Assembly: GCF_003966895.1 (NCBI RefSeq)
Contig: NZ_AP018449.1
Location: 2,931,501-2,995,500 of the forward strand
Direction of reading: 5' to 3'
Source: Methylomusa anaerophila
Lineage (GTDB): Bacteria; Bacillota; Negativicutes; Sporomusales; Sporomusaceae
Length of the DNA: 64,000 nt
The notes beneath the pieces were generated by a model. The model was not told the origin of the DNA. It saw only the letters and a program-made list of their open reading frames with translations, and ran no database searches. The position numbers and the translations under genes are program-made. This document shows, in pieces, positions 3,190 through 52,191 of this stretch. Positions within the stretch are counted from its first letter, which is position 1; each line of letters starts with the position of its first letter.

Positions 3190-3432
3190 CATTGATGAAA
3201 CGCTTTGATGAAGAACAGTAAACAGGGGAAGGGTTCAGAGAGCCAGTGGATGGTGTGAATTGGCGCCTAACTTGTTGAATCCGCTTCGGAGCAGACAGGG
3301 AAATAACTTGTTCCGGTTTGATACCGTTATCATCGGTGAGGTCATATTATCATATGACAAAATAAGGTGGCACCACGTGAGAACCTACTCCCGTCCTTGG
3401 CGAAGCACAGGAACGGGAGCTTTATTATTTTC
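3190..3432 (+). promoter_or_regulatory. Serine-specific T-box leader with terminator
   Basis: T-box RNAs read the charging state of a tRNA and turn on the downstream gene when it is uncharged. Seen: the stem I motif GAACAGTAAA near 3210, the apical motif GATGGTGTGAATTGG around 3248-3263, a specifier loop GAA-TCC-GC with TCC (serine) at 3280-3282, the T-box sequence AAGGTGGCACCACG at 3364-3377, and the terminator hairpin CTCCCGT/ACGGGAG followed by T-rich sequence (about 3387-3431). The serine codon matches the downstream serA gene. Established family; specifier assignment made by eye. Confidence 0.93.
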
Positions 3433-21614: not shown

Positions 21615-23621
21615 GTGGTGCCGCGTGATGCAACATTTACCGACTGTAAAAATTTCCATACTGAAATGGCGGCTCACAAACAATCCATTTTAGATTGGTT
21701 CCCGGATACCATATTTCAGGTTAGCCGGTCGGGTATTATCTTGTTTTTTAAGCCGTCAAAACAGTATTCACTGCTGCTTTCCCAGGAAGCAGCAGGTCAG
21801 CACATTAGTGCAGTTTTGCCGTGGCACCCGGCAATGGCGGCAACCGAGGCCATCGCCGCGGCGTTTAATACCGGCGAGATTCAACTGTTTGAATATACTT
21901 TAAACCATAACAATAAAACCATGTATTTTGAGGCGCGGGTCACCAAGACGGGCGGGGAAGAAGCGCTGATAGTTGTAAGAGATATCAGCGAATGGCGGCG
22001 ATCCGAAGCTAGCGATCTTTTATTGTTAGATGTAGCTGTCAAGGTGCAGGAGGAACAATCTTTAGAAAAAATTCTCAATCTGGTTTGTGAGCGGATTAAG
22101 ATGATTTTCGGTGTCCGGCTGATATGGGTTGAACGCAAGGAAGCTGACCGTTCGGTGAAATCCTTTGCCGCAGACGGGGAAACGGCCCGGTTTCTCCAGG
22201 AGAGCACTATTGATTTAGCTGAAGGCAGCGGGCTTACCGGCACTGTTTTGCGCACAGGCAAATTTCAATTAATGGATATCGAAGATCCGCGAATGCTATC
22301 GTGGCGCAAGCAGCTTGTCAAATATGCCGTCACAACCGGGGCGGCTTTTCCATTAAAGGTTGGTGGCCTGATTCTGGGAGCGTTGACCATATTTACGGAT
22401 GACCGGGATTTTTGGATAAAAAGGACCATTGTCCAGCTAACTAATATCGCCGAGCAAGTCGCCCTGGCAATACACATAACCGCTAACCGGCAGCGATTAA
22501 GACTTTTAACCGCCGGGCTGGAGTCGGCGGCCAACGCCATCCTTATTACCAGCCGGAAAGGAGACATCCAGTGGGTTAATCCTGCTTTTCTTGAGCTCAG
22601 CGGCTACAGTGCGGCCGAACTCATGGGCAGCAATATCCGCATTCTTGAATCGGGGCAGCACCCCAAATCATTTTATAAAACGATGTGGCAGTATATTTCG
22701 GCAGGCAGAATATGGCACGGTGAGGTAATCAACCGCCGGAAGGACGGCAGCCGGTATACTGCCGAAATGACGATTACGCCGGTTAGGGATGAAGCAGGCA
22801 AAATTGCCAATTTTATTTCGATCATCCAGGATGTTACCCAACGCAAACAAGCCGAGTACGAGATGCTTGAAGCACGGGAAGCGGTGGCGCGAACTGAGCG
22901 GTTAAGCGCACTGGGGATAATGGCGGCGGGAATTGCCCATGAGATAAACCAACCGCTAAATGCGTTGAAAGTAGTCGCCGACGGGATGCTCTACTGGTAT
23001 GGCAAAGGCAAGGTACCCGCTATCGACAAGGTGATGGAAAATATTCAAGATATTTCCAAAGACGCCGACCGGATCGATGCGATTATCAAACATATGCGTT
23101 CTTTAATTTACAGCAGTGACTCTACACAGCAAAAACTCTGTAATATCAATCTGGCGGTAGAGGAATCATTGTCCCTGCTCGGCGCGCAGCTCAAGTCCCA
23201 CAATATTGAAGTTAAGACGGTTCTGGCGGCTGAGTTGCCGCTTGTTGCCGGGAACAGTACCCAACTGGAACAGATTATTATCAATCTTCTGGTTAATGCC
23301 ATGCATGCGCTGGACACAGTCGATAAACCCGACAAGCAGATTACTATTGCAACCGGCAGGAAAAAAGGCCGCGTTTTTTTGGAAGTCGGTGACAACGGGC
23401 CGGGTATAAGCGGAAAAATCAAAAGCAAAATTTTCGATCCTTTTTTTACTACTAAACCTGCCGGTGAAGGCATGGGGCTTGGTTTGTCGGTCGTCCATTC
23501 TATCGTCACATCCTATGGGGGCCAAATTAAAGTGAATGATAACAGAACAACAGGAGGCGTTACCTTTCGGATTGAATTTCCTGCCGCCATAGAAAAGCAG
23601 AAAGGAGAGAGACCTACGTGA
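21615..23621 (+). CDS. NtrB-like sensor kinase (PAS-GAF-PAS-HisKA-HATPase)
   Basis: A 668-residue soluble kinase. Seen: PAS (about 20-130), GAF (about 140-290, GSGLTGTVLRTG), PAS (about 300-415, NPAFLELSGYSAAELMG), HisKA with phospho-acceptor in GIAHEINQPLNALK (about 440), and HATPase with NLLVNAMHAL, DNGPGISG and GMGLGLSVV. The start is GTG at 21615 or 21618 after AGAGGAGG. Its stop overlaps the start of the NtrC-like regulator (GTGA), so the two are coupled and almost certainly partners. The PAS/GAF sensors suggest redox, gas or small-molecule input; no heme-ligand pattern could be fixed by eye. Confidence 0.93.
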   Translation: MVPRDATFTDCKNFHTEMAAHKQSILDWFPDTIFQVSRSGIILFFKPSKQYSLLLSQEAAGQHISAVLPWHPAMAATEAIAAAFNTGEIQLFEYTLNHNNKTMYFEARVTKTGGEEALIVVRDISEWRRSEASDLLLLDVAVKVQEEQSLEKILNLVCERIKMIFGVRLIWVERKEADRSVKSFAADGETARFLQESTIDLAEGSGLTGTVLRTGKFQLMDIEDPRMLSWRKQLVKYAVTTGAAFPLKVGGLILGALTIFTDDRDFWIKRTIVQLTNIAEQVALAIHITANRQRLRLLTAGLESAANAILITSRKGDIQWVNPAFLELSGYSAAELMGSNIRILESGQHPKSFYKTMWQYISAGRIWHGEVINRRKDGSRYTAEMTITPVRDEAGKIANFISIIQDVTQRKQAEYEMLEAREAVARTERLSALGIMAAGIAHEINQPLNALKVVADGMLYWYGKGKVPAIDKVMENIQDISKDADRIDAIIKHMRSLIYSSDSTQQKLCNINLAVEESLSLLGAQLKSHNIEVKTVLAAELPLVAGNSTQLEQIIINLLVNAMHALDTVDKPDKQITIATGRKKGRVFLEVGDNGPGISGKIKSKIFDPFFTTKPAGEGMGLGLSVVHSIVTSYGGQIKVNDNRTTGGVTFRIEFPAAIEKQKGERPT

Positions 23622-25084
23622 ATATTTTGCTTGTTGACGATGATGCCCGCAGCCGGGCCGGAGTTGCCAAATTTTTATGGGAAATGGGGCACCATGTGAC
23701 CGAATGCTGCGACGGGGAGGAAGCTTGGGCAACTTATACCGCCAGTGCTTTTCCCATGGTGCTGTCCGACATAAAAATGCCAAGATTGTCAGGGATAGAA
23801 CTGCTAAGCCGTATTACAGCCTTACCCGGCCGAAAGGCGGATGTGGTTTTATTCACCGGGCACGGGGATATGACAACGGCGATTCAAGCTTTGCGGGCAG
23901 GAGCTTATGACTACCTGCTGAAACCCATTAACGTCGAAGAATTGGCGACGATTACCGACAAAGTTGCCGAACATCAGGCGCTGCTCTACGAAAATAAAGT
24001 ACTTACCGAGAGGTTCAGCGACGAAGTGCAGGCGGCGACGGAAGAAACCAGGCAGGAGCTGTCCCGGCTCAAGCGGGCATTATCTCAGGCGGCAGGTCTC
24101 GAAAATATCGGTTTTTTTTCTAAACAGATGCAGGATATTGTTCAGCAAGCGCAAAAATACCACACGAATAGATCCATACCGGTGCTGGTCGAGGGAGAAA
24201 CGGGGACAGGCAAGGAAATAATATCCAGAATCATTCATTATGGCAATATGGACGGCGAAACGGACGATCAGACGCCCTTCATCGATGTAAACTGCGCCGC
24301 AATCAGCGCCAATCTGTTTGAAAGCGAACTTTTTGGCTACGAGCCCGGCGCCTTTACCGGCAGTTTAACCAAAGGACAGAAGGGCAAGCTTGATCTGGCT
24401 CAGGGCGGTACCTTGCTCCTGGATGAAGTGGGTGAAATACCTTTGGAGTTACAGGGTAAACTGCTAAGGGTACTGCAGGAAAAAGAGTTCTACCGGGTCG
24501 GTGGTTTAAAGAAAATAAAAACAGATGTGCGAATTATCTGTGCGACCAATGCTGATTTGGAGCAGCGGGTGGAGCAGGGAACTTTTCGCCGGGACCTGTA
24601 TTTCCGGCTAAAAGTAGGCCACTTTCTTATTCCCCCGCTGCGCCAGCGGCGGGATGATATTATTCCCCTGTCAGAAATGTTCCTTCGCCAGTTTACAGGC
24701 AAAAAAGCAAACCGGTTTCAGCGGATTAGCGACAGTGCCGCAGCCCTCTTGCTGAATTATAACTGGCCGGGAAACATACGTGAGCTTAGGAATACCATGG
24801 AATGGGTTTTATTTATGTATGACGATGCGGAACTCAAACCGGCCCACCTGGCCCACCTGCACAACAATCCGCAACCCTCCCTCAGTTCCGCCGACAATGG
24901 ACAAGCGTTTATCCCGGAGAAGTTTACCCTGCCGGCAAGCGGGTTTTCCTTAGAAGAATACGTTGACCAAATTATTGCGCAGGCCATTGAAATATGCCAG
25001 GGTAATAAAACGGCCGCAGCCATGCGGTTGGGGATTTCACGGCGTTCCTTATATAGCCGCTTAAAGAAGGTGAAAGGCAAGTAG
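23618..25084 (+). CDS. NtrC-family response regulator (sigma-54 activator)
   Basis: A 488-residue regulator in three parts. Receiver: LVDDDARSRAGV, phospho-Asp in MVLSDIKMP (about 50), Lys in YLLKP (about 105). AAA+ domain: Walker A GETGTGKE (about 195), GAFTGS at about 245 (the sigma-54 contact loop), Walker B GGTLLLDEVG, and the R-finger region. C-terminal Fis-type helix-turn-helix: KTAAAMRLGISRRSLYSRL. It activates sigma-54 promoters. Two such promoters lie 3.6 and 6.5 kb upstream in this window, and it is the only such activator in view, so it is the best candidate to control them (inference). Starts at GTG 23618 inside the kinase stop. Confidence 0.95.
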   Translation: MNILLVDDDARSRAGVAKFLWEMGHHVTECCDGEEAWATYTASAFPMVLSDIKMPRLSGIELLSRITALPGRKADVVLFTGHGDMTTAIQALRAGAYDYLLKPINVEELATITDKVAEHQALLYENKVLTERFSDEVQAATEETRQELSRLKRALSQAAGLENIGFFSKQMQDIVQQAQKYHTNRSIPVLVEGETGTGKEIISRIIHYGNMDGETDDQTPFIDVNCAAISANLFESELFGYEPGAFTGSLTKGQKGKLDLAQGGTLLLDEVGEIPLELQGKLLRVLQEKEFYRVGGLKKIKTDVRIICATNADLEQRVEQGTFRRDLYFRLKVGHFLIPPLRQRRDDIIPLSEMFLRQFTGKKANRFQRISDSAAALLLNYNWPGNIRELRNTMEWVLFMYDDAELKPAHLAHLHNNPQPSLSSADNGQAFIPEKFTLPASGFSLEEYVDQIIAQAIEICQGNKTAAAMRLGISRRSLYSRLKKVKGK

Positions 25085-25108
25085 TTTTAAGACGGGGGGG
25101 ACAACATA

Positions 25109-26284
25109 ATGGGGGAACAGGAATATCAAATGTTAACGGAAACCGAGCATCTTTTTTGCCGTGCCCGTATCCTGTATATGGAAGATGATGTCGGCCTTGG
25201 CCGTTTGCTGCAAAAAAGGCTGGAACGGATGGCCTGTATGGTGGATATCGCCCACAACGGCAGCGCCGGCCTGGAAATGTTCACAGACGGTACTTATGAT
25301 GTTGTAATTACGGATTATGATATGCCGGTTGTCGACGGTCTGGAAGTTTTAAAAAAATTGAAAGATTTTATACCGGTTATTATACTTACCGGCCAAGGGG
25401 ATGAAAGGGTCGCTGTGGAGGCTATGAAGCTGGGAGCTGCCGATTACGTGGCCAAAGACGCTAATGGTGAATATATCGAACTCCTGCCGTCGGTAATTGA
25501 CCGGGTAATGGAGCGGCAACAGCTTATAAGGGATAAAATGCAGGCTCAGGCTGAACTGTTGGCGAGCGAAGCACGTTACCGGGCCATTGTTGAAGACCAG
25601 ACCGAACTGATTTGCCGTTTCCAGCCGGGCGGTAAACTAACCTTCGCCAATGCGGCTTTTTGCCGCTATTTCGATATTCGGCCGGGGGATATAGTTTTTC
25701 AAAGCCTTACAGCCATATTGTCGCGAAAAGCCTATCAGCATATGAGGGATACTCTTAAGGCACTAACGCCCCAAACGCCGGTGGCGACAACTACTCAAAA
25801 CATTAAAATGGTCGATGGTTCAGTACACTGGCTGCAATGGACCGGCCGGGCCATATTTGGCGATTCTTACAAGCTCAGGGAATATCAACTGGTGGGCCGC
25901 GATATTACCGAACTTAAATTGGCGGAGGAAGCTTTGCGGGAAGGTGAAGAGAAAAATAACGCCCTTCTAAATGCCATACCGGACCCGATTCTGAGGATCG
26001 ACCGCCATGGCACCTGCGTAGATTTACGACCTGATAAAGACCGGAGTTTAAATTTGTCCCCTGATTTCATTGGTAAAAATATTGCCGAGTTTTTTCCGCC
26101 GGATGTTGTTACGTTGCTGCAGGATCACTTAAATAAAATATTCCGGGAAGGAACCGGCCAGATGTTTCAATTCGAACTGCGCCAGGGGGAAAGCGTCAGT
26201 TACCATGAGGTGAGGCTGGTCTTTGCCGGGGGAAAAGAAGCGCTGGCTATCATCCGTGATATTACCACCCAGGGAGGGGGATAG
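25109..26284 (+). CDS. REC-PAS-PAS protein without output domain
   Basis: A 391-residue signalling protein. Seen: a receiver (YMEDDVGLGRLL, phospho-Asp in VVITDYDMP at about 72, Thr in ILTGQG, Lys in YVAKD), then two PAS domains (about 160-275 and 285-385). It has no kinase, DNA-binding, GGDEF, EAL or methyl-accepting domain. It may be a phospho-acceptor that senses and relays, or a partner of one of the flanking kinases. The ATG at 25109 follows GGGGGGG; the NtrC-like gene ends 24 bases before, so it belongs to the same operon. Confidence 0.88.
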   Translation: MGEQEYQMLTETEHLFCRARILYMEDDVGLGRLLQKRLERMACMVDIAHNGSAGLEMFTDGTYDVVITDYDMPVVDGLEVLKKLKDFIPVIILTGQGDERVAVEAMKLGAADYVAKDANGEYIELLPSVIDRVMERQQLIRDKMQAQAELLASEARYRAIVEDQTELICRFQPGGKLTFANAAFCRYFDIRPGDIVFQSLTAILSRKAYQHMRDTLKALTPQTPVATTTQNIKMVDGSVHWLQWTGRAIFGDSYKLREYQLVGRDITELKLAEEALREGEEKNNALLNAIPDPILRIDRHGTCVDLRPDKDRSLNLSPDFIGKNIAEFFPPDVVTLLQDHLNKIFREGTGQMFQFELRQGESVSYHEVRLVFAGGKEALAIIRDITTQGGG

Positions 26285-26287
26285 GCT

Positions 26288-26704
26288 ATGGAACCGATCA
26301 AAATTCTTCTGGTGGAAGACGATCCCGGACATGCCCGGCTAATTGAAAGAAACCTGCGCCGGGCCGGAATTGCCAATGAAATTATCTTTATCGATAATGG
26401 ACAGAGTGCGCTTGATTATCTGAATACTCCTTGCGCGACGGGAATGTACGAATGCCTGTTAATACTCCTGGATTTGAATCTGCCTGTTTTAGACGGCTAC
26501 CAGGTGCTGGAAAGAATCAAGTCCGGCGAGCGGACTAAAAAAATCCCGGTCATTATACTGACTACGACCGACGTTCCCCAGGAAGTTGACAGGTGTTATG
26601 AATTGGGCTGCAATATTTTTATTACCAAGCCGGTTCAGTATGATGATTTTTGCACTGCTGTCAGCAATTTAGGGCTGTTATTGTCCATCGTTAAAATCCC
26701 GTAA
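26288..26704 (+). CDS. Single-domain response regulator, Rcp1 type (copy 1)
   Basis: A 138-residue receiver of the kind paired with phytochrome-like kinases (cyanobacterial Rcp1). Seen: LVEDDPGHARLIERNLRRA, phospho-Asp in LLDLNLPVLDG (about 62), TTT in place of the conserved Thr/Ser, and ITKPVQ with the conserved Lys. It has no output domain. It starts three bases after the REC-PAS-PAS stop and has a paralogue at 28655-29086. Its partner is probably the following kinase. Confidence 0.9.
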   Translation: MEPIKILLVEDDPGHARLIERNLRRAGIANEIIFIDNGQSALDYLNTPCATGMYECLLILLDLNLPVLDGYQVLERIKSGERTKKIPVIILTTTDVPQEVDRCYELGCNIFITKPVQYDDFCTAVSNLGLLLSIVKIP

Positions 26705-26840
26705 GCCGATTTTTTCCTTCAGGGCCTCACCCATTTCTTTCAATACATTCCTATTTTTCAGTTTACGACAGGAATTCCTATAGTTTTGGCAAATTAATGT
26801 ATTTTGTGAATTACTCACACACAAAGGATGAATAGATAAT

Positions 26841-28640
26841 ATGTTGTTTATCAACTGCCGTAAAGTCTTCAGCGTATCGTGGTCCATACCCAATGGGTTG
26901 ATTGCAAGGTTTTGCACCTTGCTTTTATTGATTTTGCTTATAATCGGGCTTATGCAAACGGGTGATTCCCTGGCGGCAGAATCTCCGCCTGCCGGGAAGG
27001 TGCTTTTTAATGGGGACTACCCTATTCAGTTCAAGGTACCCTTGGAATGGGAGTTACACCGGTGGCAAATTCTCGGCGTGCTTGTCCTGGTACTGCTGGA
27101 GACATTTCTGGTTTTTCAACTATTGGCAAGCCGTCGCCAGCGCCAAAGGGCGGAAAAGGAACTCCGCCAATTGAATGTTCAATTGGAAAATAAGGTGCGG
27201 GACCGGATGAGCGAACTGCAGGATATCAATGCCACGCTGGAAGAGGAAATTGCCGAACGGCAGGCGACAGAGGAGGAGTTGCGTGCGACCTACGATGCGC
27301 TTACGGCTAGCCAGGGCCGTTATCAAGGTCTGTTTGATCACATGCAGAACCCATTTACCTTGAAAAAGGTTATTATTGATGATCATGGACGACCGGCCGA
27401 TCTCGAGTATGTGGAAGTTAACCCAATGTTTCAAAGGATGATTGGCCGCAAGGCCGGCAATATTGTGGGCAAACGGTTCAAAGAGGTGTACCCTGCCCTC
27501 ACCGAGAAACCCTTCGACTGGATTCAGGAACTGGGCGAAGTCGCGCTCAACGGTCAGCCGAAAAATTTCGAAGCCTATTTCGGAATTAGCCGCAGATGGT
27601 ATCAGTTTTCCGCCTATAGTCCGGAGCAAGGATCTATTGCCCTCATTTCCACCGATATCACAGCGGGAAAACAAGCAGAGCAACAATTGCAATATCTGAA
27701 TGAACAGTTAAAAAGTAAAATGCAGGAACTGCAGGATATTAACGCCACGCTGGAAGAGGAAATCAGCGAACGGCAGACTGCCCAGGAAGCGCTTGTGGCC
27801 AGCCGGGACTCACTCCTAGTGAGGGAGGCCCAACTGAAACATTACGCTTCCGAATTGGTTGACACCAATAAAGAGCTCAGGGATTTTGCCAATATCGTGG
27901 CCCATGATTTCCGAACACCCATGGTCAACCTGAAAGGTTTTGCCCAGGAACTCGACCATACTTTGGCCGATCTGAGACAAATTATCCAAGATCAGGCAGC
28001 GTACTTTCCAGACGAAGTTTCCCAAAAAGTGGATGAACTGCTGGACAGGGATGTGCCTGAGGCCCTTACCTATATTCACTCTTCTGTCGACCGGCTGGAC
28101 AGAATGGTTGCCACTCTCTTAAAGCTGGCCCAGGTTGGCCGCCGCGAAATGTCCTATCAACAAGTTGATATGCGTGAACTGGTCGGCAATGTCATGCAGT
28201 CTTTCGATCGTCAGATTACACACAATGGCATTCAAACCCAGGTTGGGACGTTACCTCAAATCGAAACCGATCAACTGGCCCTGGAGCAGATAATCGGCAA
28301 CTTACTGGATAACGCCATAAAATACCTGGAACCCGGCCGGCCAGGCAGGATTGAAATATCTTGCATTGATAACGGTGATGAATATCTGTTTTGCATCGAA
28401 GATAATGGGCGGGGCATCGCCGCGATGGATTGTGAGAAAATTTTTGATATTTTTCGGCGGTCAGGAAAACAAGACATGCCGGGGGAAGGTATGGGCCTGG
28501 CGTATGTCAGGACTCTGATCCGGCAACTGGGTGGCAAGGTGTGGTGCAAATCAGAACTTGGGATTGGGACCAAGATGAATTTTACCATTCCTAAAAGGCA
28601 TTATAACGATAATTTGACTAACTCCGCCGTCGTCATTTAG
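26841..28640 (+). CDS. Membrane-anchored phytochrome-type histidine kinase
   Basis: A 599-residue sensor kinase. Seen: two hydrophobic segments (about residues 23-45 and 75-95) enclosing a very short external loop, coiled coil with ELQDINATLEEEI (about 115-150), a PAS domain (about 160-275), a second coiled coil with the same repeat, HisKA with NIVAHDFRTPMVNLKGF (about 355), and HATPase (NLLDNAIKYL, DNGRGIAA, GEGMGLAYV). The kinase half closely matches the 14872 kinase. The short periplasmic loop suggests it senses in or near the membrane or through PAS. An Rcp1-type regulator follows 14 bases later. Confidence 0.92.
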   Translation: MLFINCRKVFSVSWSIPNGLIARFCTLLLLILLIIGLMQTGDSLAAESPPAGKVLFNGDYPIQFKVPLEWELHRWQILGVLVLVLLETFLVFQLLASRRQRQRAEKELRQLNVQLENKVRDRMSELQDINATLEEEIAERQATEEELRATYDALTASQGRYQGLFDHMQNPFTLKKVIIDDHGRPADLEYVEVNPMFQRMIGRKAGNIVGKRFKEVYPALTEKPFDWIQELGEVALNGQPKNFEAYFGISRRWYQFSAYSPEQGSIALISTDITAGKQAEQQLQYLNEQLKSKMQELQDINATLEEEISERQTAQEALVASRDSLLVREAQLKHYASELVDTNKELRDFANIVAHDFRTPMVNLKGFAQELDHTLADLRQIIQDQAAYFPDEVSQKVDELLDRDVPEALTYIHSSVDRLDRMVATLLKLAQVGRREMSYQQVDMRELVGNVMQSFDRQITHNGIQTQVGTLPQIETDQLALEQIIGNLLDNAIKYLEPGRPGRIEISCIDNGDEYLFCIEDNGRGIAAMDCEKIFDIFRRSGKQDMPGEGMGLAYVRTLIRQLGGKVWCKSELGIGTKMNFTIPKRHYNDNLTNSAVVI

Positions 28641-28654
28641 AAAGGAGCTAAAAT

Positions 28655-29086
28655 ATGTTGCGGACCAAAAAAATATTGCTGGTGGAAGACGACCCTGGCC
28701 ATACCCGTTTAATTGAAAAGAACCTGCGCCGTGCCGGGATTGCAAATGATATCGTTTTTTTTGATAATGGACAGAGCCTGCTTGATTATCTGAGCACTCC
28801 TGTTTGTGAACAGGGAACGCAAGAATGCCTGCTAATGCTGCTGGACTTGAATCTGCCGGTTTTTGACGGCTACCAAGTGCTGCAACGAATCAAAGCCGAC
28901 CAGCGGACCAAGAAAATTCCGATAATTGTCCTGACTACTACCGATATTCCCCAGGATGTAGAACGCTGTTACGACCTGGGCTGCAATTTGTTTATTACCA
29001 AACCAATTCAGTATGAGGAATTCAGTACGGCTATCCGGAATCTGGGCTTGCTGCTGTCCGTTGTAAAAATCCCTTCTGCCCAGTGA
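28655..29086 (+). CDS. Single-domain response regulator, Rcp1 type (copy 2)
   Basis: A 143-residue paralogue of the 26288 protein: LVEDDPGHTRLIEKNLRRA, phospho-Asp in LLDLNLPVFDG, TTTDIPQDVERCYDLGCN, ITKPIQ. It has no output domain. The ATG at 28655 follows AAAGGAGC, 14 bases after the kinase stop, so it is probably that kinase's partner. The pattern suggests a regulator-kinase unit that expanded by duplication. Confidence 0.9.
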   Translation: MLRTKKILLVEDDPGHTRLIEKNLRRAGIANDIVFFDNGQSLLDYLSTPVCEQGTQECLLMLLDLNLPVFDGYQVLQRIKADQRTKKIPIIVLTTTDIPQDVERCYDLGCNLFITKPIQYEEFSTAIRNLGLLLSVVKIPSAQ

Positions 29087-29246
29087 ATTTGCCCCCTTTT
29101 TTTGCAACCTGCCGGCTTAGCGGACTGTCAGTTTCCTACTGTACTTGCAATAATTTTTGATAATTATGATAATACTGTTTAATAAAATAATTGCGACTAT
29201 TTTTCATGTTATTGCACTATCTCCGGACTTATGATACACTTTAACC
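29087..29246. other. AT-rich spacer upstream of the nif promoter
   Basis: About 160 bases, AT rich, with no coding frame. No sigma-54 or obvious NifA-type TGT-N10-ACA site was found here. Confidence 0.5.
29212..29240 (+). promoter_or_regulatory. Candidate nif operon promoter
   Basis: TTGCAC (29212-29217), 17 bases, TACACT (29235-29240) with TGA just before the -10. It is sigma-A like rather than sigma-54 like. Transcription would start near 29247 and give a leader of about 400 bases before nifI1. Confidence 0.55.
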
Positions 29247-29653
29247 AATCTAATACATTAACAAAAGCGACGAGGCTTACGAACGTACAGTTTGTAAGCC
29301 TCTTTCTGCTCCTACCGGCTCCTGATCCGTCAAAGATCAGCAAGGTAGTTGTGGTAAAGACCACGGATAAGCAACGGAGCTTATAAATGCCATGCGCGTT
29401 TATAAGCTTTTTTTGTCTAGCCGGTTATTTCAGCCAAAGGAAGAAAGCAAGGGCGATATGCCCGCAAGCAACGGGGCTTGCGACGAAGGACCGTCGTGTG
29501 CTCTTTCGCTATTTAAGGAGGTGGTGGCGCCATCAGCAAAAAAAGTGCTTCATAGGTATTCGCAGTACCCATGAAGCGGGTGGTAAATAACCTAAGGGGT
29601 GCTCAGGTATATATTACCTGTATTCATTATACCACAGGGATGAAGAGGAGGAA
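29247..29653 (+). ncRNA. Long structured nif leader RNA with internal terminator
   Basis: Class unassigned. Seen in order: hairpin GAGGCTTAC/GTAAGCCTC (29272-29302); a multibranch domain closed by GCTCC (29308-29312) and GGAGC (29376-29380), holding CTGATC/GATCAG, TACC/GGTA and GTGGT/ACCAC; an intrinsic terminator sharing the closing strand (29379-29414); a second domain (about 29434-29510) with GGGC/GCCC, GCAAG/CTTGC and CGACG/CGTCG hairpins; GCTTCAT/ATGAAGC (about 29549-29579); and CAGGTA/TACCTG near 29610. AAGCAACGG-GGCTT-like hairpins occur in both domains. Sharing of the P1 strand with a terminator is the layout of a riboswitch or protein-controlled attenuator (inference). Confidence 0.6.
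29379..29414 (+). terminator. Attenuator terminator in the nif leader
   Basis: GCTTATAAA, an 11-base loop, TTTATAAGC and seven T. Its 5' arm overlaps GGAGC, the closing strand of the preceding domain, so the two folds exclude each other. Confidence 0.82.
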
Positions 29654-29977
29654 ATGCCCATGAAAATGATTCGAGCTATTGTCAGACCGGAAAAAAGTGA
29701 AACTGTTGCTGAAAAATTGGCTGAAACCGGCCTGGTATCCATGACCAAGATGCATGTATTTGGCCGGGGTAAGGGCAAGGGTTTGCAAGTTGGAGATATT
29801 CGTTATGACGAGCTTCCCAAGGTTATGCTGCTCATGGTTGTTCCCGACGAAGCGGTAGAAAAGGCCGTGGACATTATTATTGAAACCGGCAAGACCGGTT
29901 ACGTCGGTGACGGAAAAATTTTCATCTCCCCGGTAGAGGCGGCTTATACAGTACGAACCGGCGAAGCCGGGTTGTAA
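29654..29977 (+). CDS. nifI1: NifI1, PII-family nitrogenase regulator
   Basis: A 107-residue PII-like protein. With NifI2 it binds dinitrogenase and switches activity off under ammonium, responding to 2-oxoglutarate (known from methanogens). Seen: MKMIRAIVRPEKSETVAEKL, GRGKGKGLQVGDIRYDELPK (T-loop region), GYVGDGKIFI and AYTVRTGE. It is first in the nif operon and 14 bases before nifI2. GAGGAGGAA precedes the ATG at 29654; another ATG at 29660 is possible. Confidence 0.95.
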   Translation: MPMKMIRAIVRPEKSETVAEKLAETGLVSMTKMHVFGRGKGKGLQVGDIRYDELPKVMLLMVVPDEAVEKAVDIIIETGKTGYVGDGKIFISPVEAAYTVRTGEAGL

Positions 29978-29991
29978 AGGAGCGACGGCAG

Positions 29992-30378
29992 ATGAAGGAA
30001 ATTATCGCTTTTGTTAGACGCCATCAGGTTCCGGCTTCCAAAAAAGCGCTGGAGGAGGCGGGATTCAGCGCTCTCACCCTGCACAGCGTTGAAGGCCGCG
30101 GTAAGCAAAAGGGCGTAGGCGGCTGGGCGGCAGAAGTAGATCCCGAGATGAACAAGCTGCTAAAATATGAAACTCCGGTGCCGGAAGCTACAATGAAGTG
30201 GATTCCCAAACGGATGCTGAGCCTGATTGTCAAGGACGAGGATGTTGAAAAGGCTGTAAGTGCCTTAATTAAGGCCAATCAAACAGGACACATCGGCGAC
30301 GGTAAAATTTTTGTTTGCCCGCTGGAGGAGATTGTAAGGGTTAGAACCGGTGAGACCGGTCCCCGGGCTGTTTCCTAA
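29992..30378 (+). CDS. nifI2: NifI2, PII-family nitrogenase regulator
   Basis: A 128-residue PII paralogue and partner of NifI1. Seen: MKEIIAFVRRHQVPASKKAL, EGRGKQKGVGG, the extended T-loop typical of NifI2, MLSLIVKDEDVEKAVSALI, GHIGDGKIFVCP, VRVRTGE. It lies between nifI1 and nifH, as in clostridia and methanogens. The leading AAAGGAGCGACGGCAG sets the ATG at 29992. An 86-base spacer separates it from nifH. Confidence 0.95.
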   Translation: MKEIIAFVRRHQVPASKKALEEAGFSALTLHSVEGRGKQKGVGGWAAEVDPEMNKLLKYETPVPEATMKWIPKRMLSLIVKDEDVEKAVSALIKANQTGHIGDGKIFVCPLEEIVRVRTGETGPRAVS

Positions 30379-30443: not shown

Positions 30444-31319
<876 letters not shown>

Positions 31320-52054: not shown

Positions 52055-52084
52055 TTGAAAATTGCATTTTGTTACAAAGATAAT
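52055..52084 (+). promoter_or_regulatory. Promoter of the tpsAB operon
   Basis: TTGAAA (52055-52060), 18 bases, GATAAT (52079-52084), inside or next to an inverted repeat. The start point would fall at the beginning of the riboswitch, which suggests the -10 overlaps the aptamer edge or that a nearby start is used. Confidence 0.5.
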
Positions 52085-52160
52085 AATAGGCAAACCTATC
52101 GAAAGATTGGGACGCAAAACCGTGGATCTAAGGGCTAGTGTCTATGATTGCCAGGTTGCA
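52083..52160 (+). promoter_or_regulatory. Cyclic di-GMP-I (GEMM) riboswitch aptamer
   Basis: Seen: AGGCAAACC, TATCGAAAGAT (the GAAA tetraloop arm), GGGACGCAAAACC, CTAAGG, and the tetraloop-receptor side GCCAGGTTGC. All the conserved blocks of the GEMM-I family are in order. The 3' side (GATTGCCAGGTTGC, 52146-52159) is also the 5' arm of the following terminator, so ligand binding and termination exclude each other. This points to an ON switch (inference). Confidence 0.88.
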
Positions 52161-52191
52161 GTAATATTACGCAACCTGGCAATCTTTTTTG
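52146..52191 (+). terminator. Riboswitch expression-platform terminator
   Basis: GATTGCCAGGTTGC, an 11-base loop, GCAACCTGGCAATC and six T. A perfect 14-base stem. Confidence 0.92.

Follow-up and report, generated by a model that had tools for sequence, protein, structure and literature searches.

The leader of the nif operon of Methylomusa anaerophila most likely consists of tandem transcription attenuators whose termination an RNA-binding ANTAR-family regulator would override, and not of a metabolite-sensing riboswitch. In addition, a small antisense RNA gene is predicted on the opposite strand of the same leader. We assign a probability of roughly 0.8 to the whole model, that is, to a two-sided RNA control region with ANTAR-overridden terminators on the plus strand, forming a single-hexaloop tandem variant of the known ANTAR target, and an antisense small RNA gene on the minus strand. 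Both transcripts, ANTAR binding and the direction of control we infer from sequence. The antisense RNA appears to belong to no family described so far, and of the two findings it is the one of greater interest. With nearly the same confidence, we regard it as an undescribed, class-wide family residing in nitrogenase leaders (nifH, anfH and, in two genomes, leaders of formate-transporter-type genes), which in nif leaders lies beside the ANTAR attenuators and would combine sense and antisense control. To our knowledge, nitrogenase control has been little studied in these anaerobic, Gram-negative-type relatives of Firmicutes.

Layout of the nif leader

All coordinates refer to the window, i.e. 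the whole analysed stretch of 64,000 nucleotides (Table 1). The 5' end of the nif transcript is expected near 29247, downstream of a predicted promoter. Starting from there, the plus strand of 29247-29653 folds with -145.8 kcal/mol (z = -6.3), a stability reached by none of 100 shuffled sequences; for the first domain alone, z was -6.5. The leader of about 400 bases with multiple hairpins described in the first-pass annotation is real and conserved, and its stability exceeds chance expectation. Downstream of nifI2 and nifH, nifD, nifK and other nif genes were recognized from their translations.

Three tandem attenuators were found in this leader (cores at 29266, 29370 and 29467). In each unit, the 3' arm of a small hexaloop hairpin doubles as the 5' arm of a terminator, so that only one of the two structures can form at a time. 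All hexaloops have a purine at position 1 and G at position 4. The cores of units 2 (AGCAACGGAGCTT) and 3 (AGCAACGGGGCTT) match exactly the 13-nt ANTAR (EutV) sequence AGCAANGRRGCUY, located by Ramesh et al. 2012 at the 5' base of eut terminators, within the hairpin bound by EutV (PMC3369931). The core of unit 1 (AGCGACGAGGCTT) differs from it by one mismatch, an A-to-G change at loop position 1 which occurs identically in loci L005, L020, L022 and L024. This third, degenerate unit (29266-29302) had not been named in the first-pass annotation. The T tract is strong at terminator 2, and the U tails of terminators 1 and 3 are weak. The hairpin of unit 3 is stronger in the related genome UBA5324 than in the window.

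A terminator switch ahead of the nif operon had been proposed already, and it was borne out by the terminator at 29376-29410 with its T tract. Its 5' arm is indeed shared with an upstream hairpin, but the partner is the local hexaloop hairpin at 29367-29384 rather than the long-range closing strand assumed earlier. The 'similar AAGCAACGG-centred hairpin' noticed in the second domain is GCAAGC[AACGGG]GCTTGC (29464-29481). As for the suggestion of tandem related elements or an antiterminator-protein target, it agrees with the two exact copies of the published ANTAR core, whereas the unassigned ligand sensor suggested alongside is not supported, its would-be aptamer being unconserved.

Table 1. 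Features of the nif leader region (window coordinates)
Feature	Position	Strand	Details and basis
Predicted sigma-70-type promoter of nif operon	29212..29240	+	TTGCAC-N17-TACACT; from sequence; homologous TTGCGG-N17-TACACT in UBA5324 locus L032
Attenuator unit 1	29265..29305	+	Core AGCGACGAGGCTT 29266-29278; hexaloop GACGAG 29269-29274; terminator hairpin 29272-29302
Attenuator unit 2	29367..29414	+	Hexaloop hairpin ATAAGC[AACGGA]GCTTAT 29367-29384; core AGCAACGGAGCTT 29370-29382; terminator 29376-29410 and T tract
Attenuator unit 3	29463..29506	+	Hexaloop hairpin CGCAAGC[AACGGG]GCTTGCG 29463-29482; core AGCAACGGGGCTT 29467-29479; terminator-like hairpin 29473-29504
Shine-Dalgarno-like AAGGAGGTG	29515..29523	+	Shared by many nif leaders within the class; no conserved reading frame after it
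Predicted antisense small RNA, ~80 nt	29538..29619	-	5' end near 29619; helix P1 encloses hairpin P2, followed by terminator P3; start and end inferred
Intrinsic terminator P3 of antisense RNA, GCTTCATGGGTACTGCGAATACCTATGAAGC	29547..29577	-	T tract 29544-29538
Antisense RNA promoter	29626..29654	-	-10 TATAAT (29631 to 29626), extended TG; -35 position TTTCCT (29654 to 29649)
nifI1 (P-II family), first gene of operon	29660..29977	+	Start 29660 likelier than 29654; Shine-Dalgarno sequence AGAGGAGG
nifI2	29992-30378	+	Translation
nifH	30465-31319	+	Translation; confirmed by TIGR01287

A predicted antisense small RNA inside the leader

Between unit 3 and nifI1, a small RNA gene unforeseen in the first-pass annotation is predicted on the minus strand (approximately 29538-29631). 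With its own promoter, terminator and conserved fold opposite the leader, it would qualify as a cis-antisense small RNA, and the predicted transcript is perfectly complementary to the leader. In 37 leaders, the minus-strand promoter has an exact TATAAT in all but one case (36/37), and 30 of them carry an exact TTGAAA-N17-TATAAT; in nif leaders it is situated 46-59 nt upstream of the antisense terminator hairpin. The -35 element of the window copy (TTTCCT) is degenerate and overlaps the ribosome-binding site of nifI1.

Helix P1 enclosing P2, followed by P3, was obtained for all seven sequences folded, including the divergent window copy (z from -4.0 to -5.8). These were single-sequence folds, used in place of a first RNAalifold consensus that recovered P3 alone because the sequence alignment misaligns P1 and P2. 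In P3, both sides changed in 10 of 12 pairs and 99.1% of cells are paired. The exceptions to pairing, read on the minus strand, are G-U in 28 cases and A-C in 3 (p = 5e-6), which identifies the RNA of the minus strand as the folding one. Nif leaders of the class, among them some that lack ANTAR units (L013, L018), have kept the hairpin at 29547-29577.

With a covariance model of this RNA (R1), we searched 250 class genomes as well as 299 genomes sampled from the phylum. On the window the model matched 29538-29629 of the minus strand with 66.7 bits (E = 4.7e-11), the window copy itself belonging to the model seed. The RNA was present in 53 of the 250 class genomes, and no match outside the class was detected in the phylum sample of 299. 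Among the 82 matches listed, 79 were antisense to and upstream of an nifH/anfH-type gene; the other three comprised one antisense copy preceding anfD and two copies ahead of formate-transporter-type genes. The latter are located at L251 2696-2790 and L258 639-729, where the genes are of the formate/oxalate-transporter type. Counted per genome, the RNA and a strong nifH match occurred together in 50 cases, the RNA alone in 1, nifH alone in 16 and neither in 183 (p = 3e-37, a value that overstates independence, as the genomes are related). This nearly perfect tie to the presence of nifH points to a function dedicated to nitrogen fixation. Upstream of an anfH-type gene, the genome analysed here carries a further tandem pair of copies (C1:725834 and 726017; L243 3335-3429 and 3518-3612). 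No promoter could be recognised for the second of these, and the same applies to loci L245, L253, L254 and L255.

Since some tandem copies lack their own promoter, a role of the conserved 29538-29631 segment on the sense strand, as a structured element of the 5' UTR, as a stabiliser of the mRNA or as the target of a protein, with the minus-strand promoter being secondary, must be considered a live rival, if an unlikely one. In its favour are the persistence of these promoter-less second copies, the position of the segment, always within the leader of the gene opposite to it (79 of 82 nifH-type matches), and the Shine-Dalgarno-like sequence lying before the segment. However, an almost perfect promoter on the minus strand whose spacing is always 17 nt, a T tract that follows the hairpin on the minus strand only, and the preponderance of G-U among pairing exceptions on that strand (28 to 3) argue for an antisense RNA. 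The Shine-Dalgarno-like AAGGAGGTG itself was also considered as the start of an upstream reading frame; this was rejected, as frame and length differ among relatives. Possibly, it acts as a ribosome-binding mRNA stabiliser in nif leaders.

No match to the antisense RNA was found in Rfam, either for the window copy or for better-conserved copies, its exact pattern was absent from viral contigs, and no description of it was found in the literature (open papers). Like known nitrogen-fixation small RNAs (sRNA154, NsrR1/NsiR4, RsmZ and ArrF; PMC9170634, PMC7281752), it would be tied to nitrogenase control. Unlike the antisense RNA of the nif leader, those are mainly trans-acting and come from other lineages; among the small RNAs described there (PMC9170634, PMC7281752), we found no cis-antisense RNA in nifH/anfH leaders with this fold.

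Conservation of the attenuators

The nearest nif operon is that of UBA5324 (loci L032/L003), with NifI1 86% identical, and it possesses all three units. Comparison with the window gave 75-83% identity for the units (82.5% for unit 1 and 82% for unit 2) and 80% for the antisense RNA, as against 36-56% for the intervening stretches. In the class, the units recur in most nif leaders, usually two per leader. Propionispora sp. 2/2-37, a relative available in culture, has both the units and the antisense RNA. The exact core was present in 14 of 30 class loci (1.5 kb upstream of nifI1), compared to 0.17% of shuffled sequences. When one mismatch was allowed, two or three units spaced 61-113 nt apart were found in 27 of the 31 site-bearing nif leaders; in two more, the first unit lies at the edge of the locus.

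Covariation of the paired arms in relatives, a check named in the first-pass annotation, was examined on 52 distinct units. The elements are conserved and the terminator arms covary: up to 26 both-side changes were counted at terminator stem positions, and only 0-1 of 500 shuffles matched the observed pairing at each varying stem position. The terminator partner was picked from each sequence's own fold, which inflates the absolute percentage of paired positions; the compensatory changes and the asymmetry of pairing exceptions are less affected by this choice. On the plus strand, these exceptions are G-U in 62 cases versus A-C in 5 (p = 1e-13), and the plus-strand RNA is therefore the folding strand of the attenuators.

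In relatives, matches to the core plus terminator were located ahead of nifH, P-II genes, nifV and an alternative-nitrogenase-like subunit gene, in a partly hand-picked set that illustrates rather than measures enrichment. A loose version of this pattern also matches ANTAR-less genomes, mostly at bidirectional terminators. Its genome-wide association with ANTAR genes was set aside as uninformative, because bidirectional terminators match and ANTAR genes are near-universal in the class. A stricter core pattern was matched in 11 of 250 genomes and in none with the reversed control, a small number for testing.

Could the units represent constitutive attenuation, or bidirectional terminators that resemble the ANTAR core by chance? 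The core does overlap terminator arms, and A-rich bidirectional terminators give similar strings. Nevertheless, terminators have no need of the AGC-ANNGRR loop, nif leaders from many families within the class retain two to three copies of the core even as the remainder of the arm changes with compensation, and reversed-pattern controls yield almost nothing. We thus consider this explanation highly improbable. Slightly less credible still is an orphan riboswitch, with terminator 2 controlled by a fold located between units 1 and 2, or else around unit 3, whose ligand would be related to nitrogen or molybdenum. The fold is stable and the expression-platform layout genuine, but conservation is lowest in the multihairpin stretch separating units 1 and 2 (36% identity to UBA5324 against 75-83% for the units). 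What is conserved is the hexaloop core, with a loop sequence known as a protein-binding motif, together with the terminator. Moreover, unit 1 of many relatives starts about 15-20 nt past the expected 5' end and leaves no room for an aptamer ahead of it, and no conserved covarying aptamer was found, nor any known riboswitch class in the Rfam search advised earlier (no match at gathering level and nothing credible up to E 10).

The ANTAR regulator and its possible regulon

Attenuation relieved by an ANTAR protein, which we prefer for the leader, presumes a suitable regulator. A single ANTAR gene was found in the genome, encoding a REC-ANTAR response regulator and preceded by a HisKA_2 histidine kinase gene; it adjoins groES at a distance of about 0.3 Mb from nif. 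The regulator is 43% identical to EutV. Of the EutV residues that contact the hexaloop according to Walshe et al. 2022 (R142, K143, K147, Y164 and M172; PMC8934654), R142, K143, Y164 and M172 are kept and K147 is replaced by R (alignment-checked numbering). Its nearest solved structure is mycobacterial Rv1626 (1s8n, E = 1e-59), followed by EutV. The sensor region of the kinase had no Pfam match; the signal is probably nitrogen-related. ANTAR genes occur in 212 of 250 genomes of the class, so that co-occurrence of sites and ANTAR genes adds little. In the 87%-complete assembly of UBA5324, the sites were present and no ANTAR gene was found.

Elsewhere in the genome, a core with terminator precedes a second nifB (C1:1992072). 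Another precedes a corrinoid methyltransferase protein gene (C1:2150754 = L117 1501) and is conserved in a family member (L173 454), which suggests that the ANTAR regulon extends to methyl-compound metabolism. In a further nifH-nifI1-nifI2 cluster (L185, C1:510500-513500), no ANTAR core was seen in the stretch read.

Comparison with known ANTAR systems

The nif leader shares with EutV-type RNAs (Enterococcus faecalis eut; nasF and amiE leaders) the 13-nt core and the A1/G4 hexaloop (PMC3369931, PMC8934654). Further common traits are a 3' arm shared with an intrinsic terminator, a REC-ANTAR protein with conserved RNA-contact residues, and an association with nitrogen-related genes. The published ANTAR target family is, however, defined by two hexaloops joined by a linker of 2-25 nt (PMC3369931; PMC8164766), while the nif leader has no P1 hexaloop 2-25 nt upstream and instead contains two or three single-hexaloop units with their own terminators, 61-113 nt apart. 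An upstream P1 hexaloop (A1/G4, 2-25 nt linker) was encountered in 4 of 56 upstream regions, with 5.5 expected from shuffles; in many relatives, there is no room for it because the first unit is too near the promoter. For its absence, we call the arrangement a single-hexaloop tandem variant and not a canonical dual-hexaloop member. Walshe et al. inferred that a single hexaloop makes up the minimal binding motif, although eut antitermination still needs both (PMC8934654).

Two candidates for a canonical arrangement were rejected. As for pairing of unit 3 with the next hairpin, GACG[AAGGAC]CGTC (A1, G4), this applies to the window genome only and is lost in UBA5324 (GACGGAATCTCCGCC). As for P1 candidates before unit 2, for example GTGGTAAAGACCAC, they are unconserved and have no A1/G4 loop.

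Mycobacterial PdtaS/PdtaR combine a HisKA_2 kinase with a REC-ANTAR protein, as does the genome analysed here. PdtaR (Rv1626) is the best solved relative of our regulator; unlike the nif leader system, PdtaS/PdtaR have no known tie to nif. ANTAR control of nitrogenase genes by GnfK/GnfR was reportedly proposed for Geobacter sulfurreducens by Ueki and Lovley in 2010. An ANTAR regulon at nitrogenase genes has also been predicted in Pelobacter carbinolicus (PMC3369931). These bacteria belong to a different phylum, and neither the single-hexaloop layout nor an embedded antisense RNA is mentioned in the accessible texts. Repeated target RNAs per ANTAR regulon are known from Desulfotomaculum acetoxidans (PMC3369931), and actinobacterial ANTAR RNAs form more diverged dual hairpins (PMC8164766).

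A model of nif control

According to the proposed model, the nif transcript would start near 29247 and pass three intrinsic terminator-like hairpins. By default, transcription would terminate before nifI1, terminator 2 being the strong one. Each terminator could be replaced by a small hairpin with the loop RANGRR. After activation of the single ANTAR response regulator by its HisKA_2 partner kinase, the active regulator would bind and stabilise the hexaloops, allowing the polymerase to read into nif. The minus-strand small RNA, encoded between unit 3 and nifI1 and equipped with a promoter and a terminator of its own, would provide a second layer; its effect on nif is most likely repression or tuning through duplex formation, or promoter interference.

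The model is concrete and testable: access to nif would be gated by an ANTAR two-component system through antitermination at two or three sites in succession. As the nif sites are single hexaloops, they also offer a natural test of whether two hexaloops, as in the eut model, or one per terminator are required. If the assignment is correct, the antisense RNA would define a new family, linked to molybdenum nitrogenases as well as to the iron-only type.

Neighbourhood of the leader

Upstream of nif, a two-component cluster (23618-29086) encodes an NtrC-type regulator, a PAS response regulator and a histidine kinase, together with two near-duplicate single-domain REC proteins (26288-26704 and 28655-29086). 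Two further RNA elements of the window scored above the Rfam gathering threshold, namely a T-box leader at 3196-3401 and a c-di-GMP-I riboswitch at 52079-52163.
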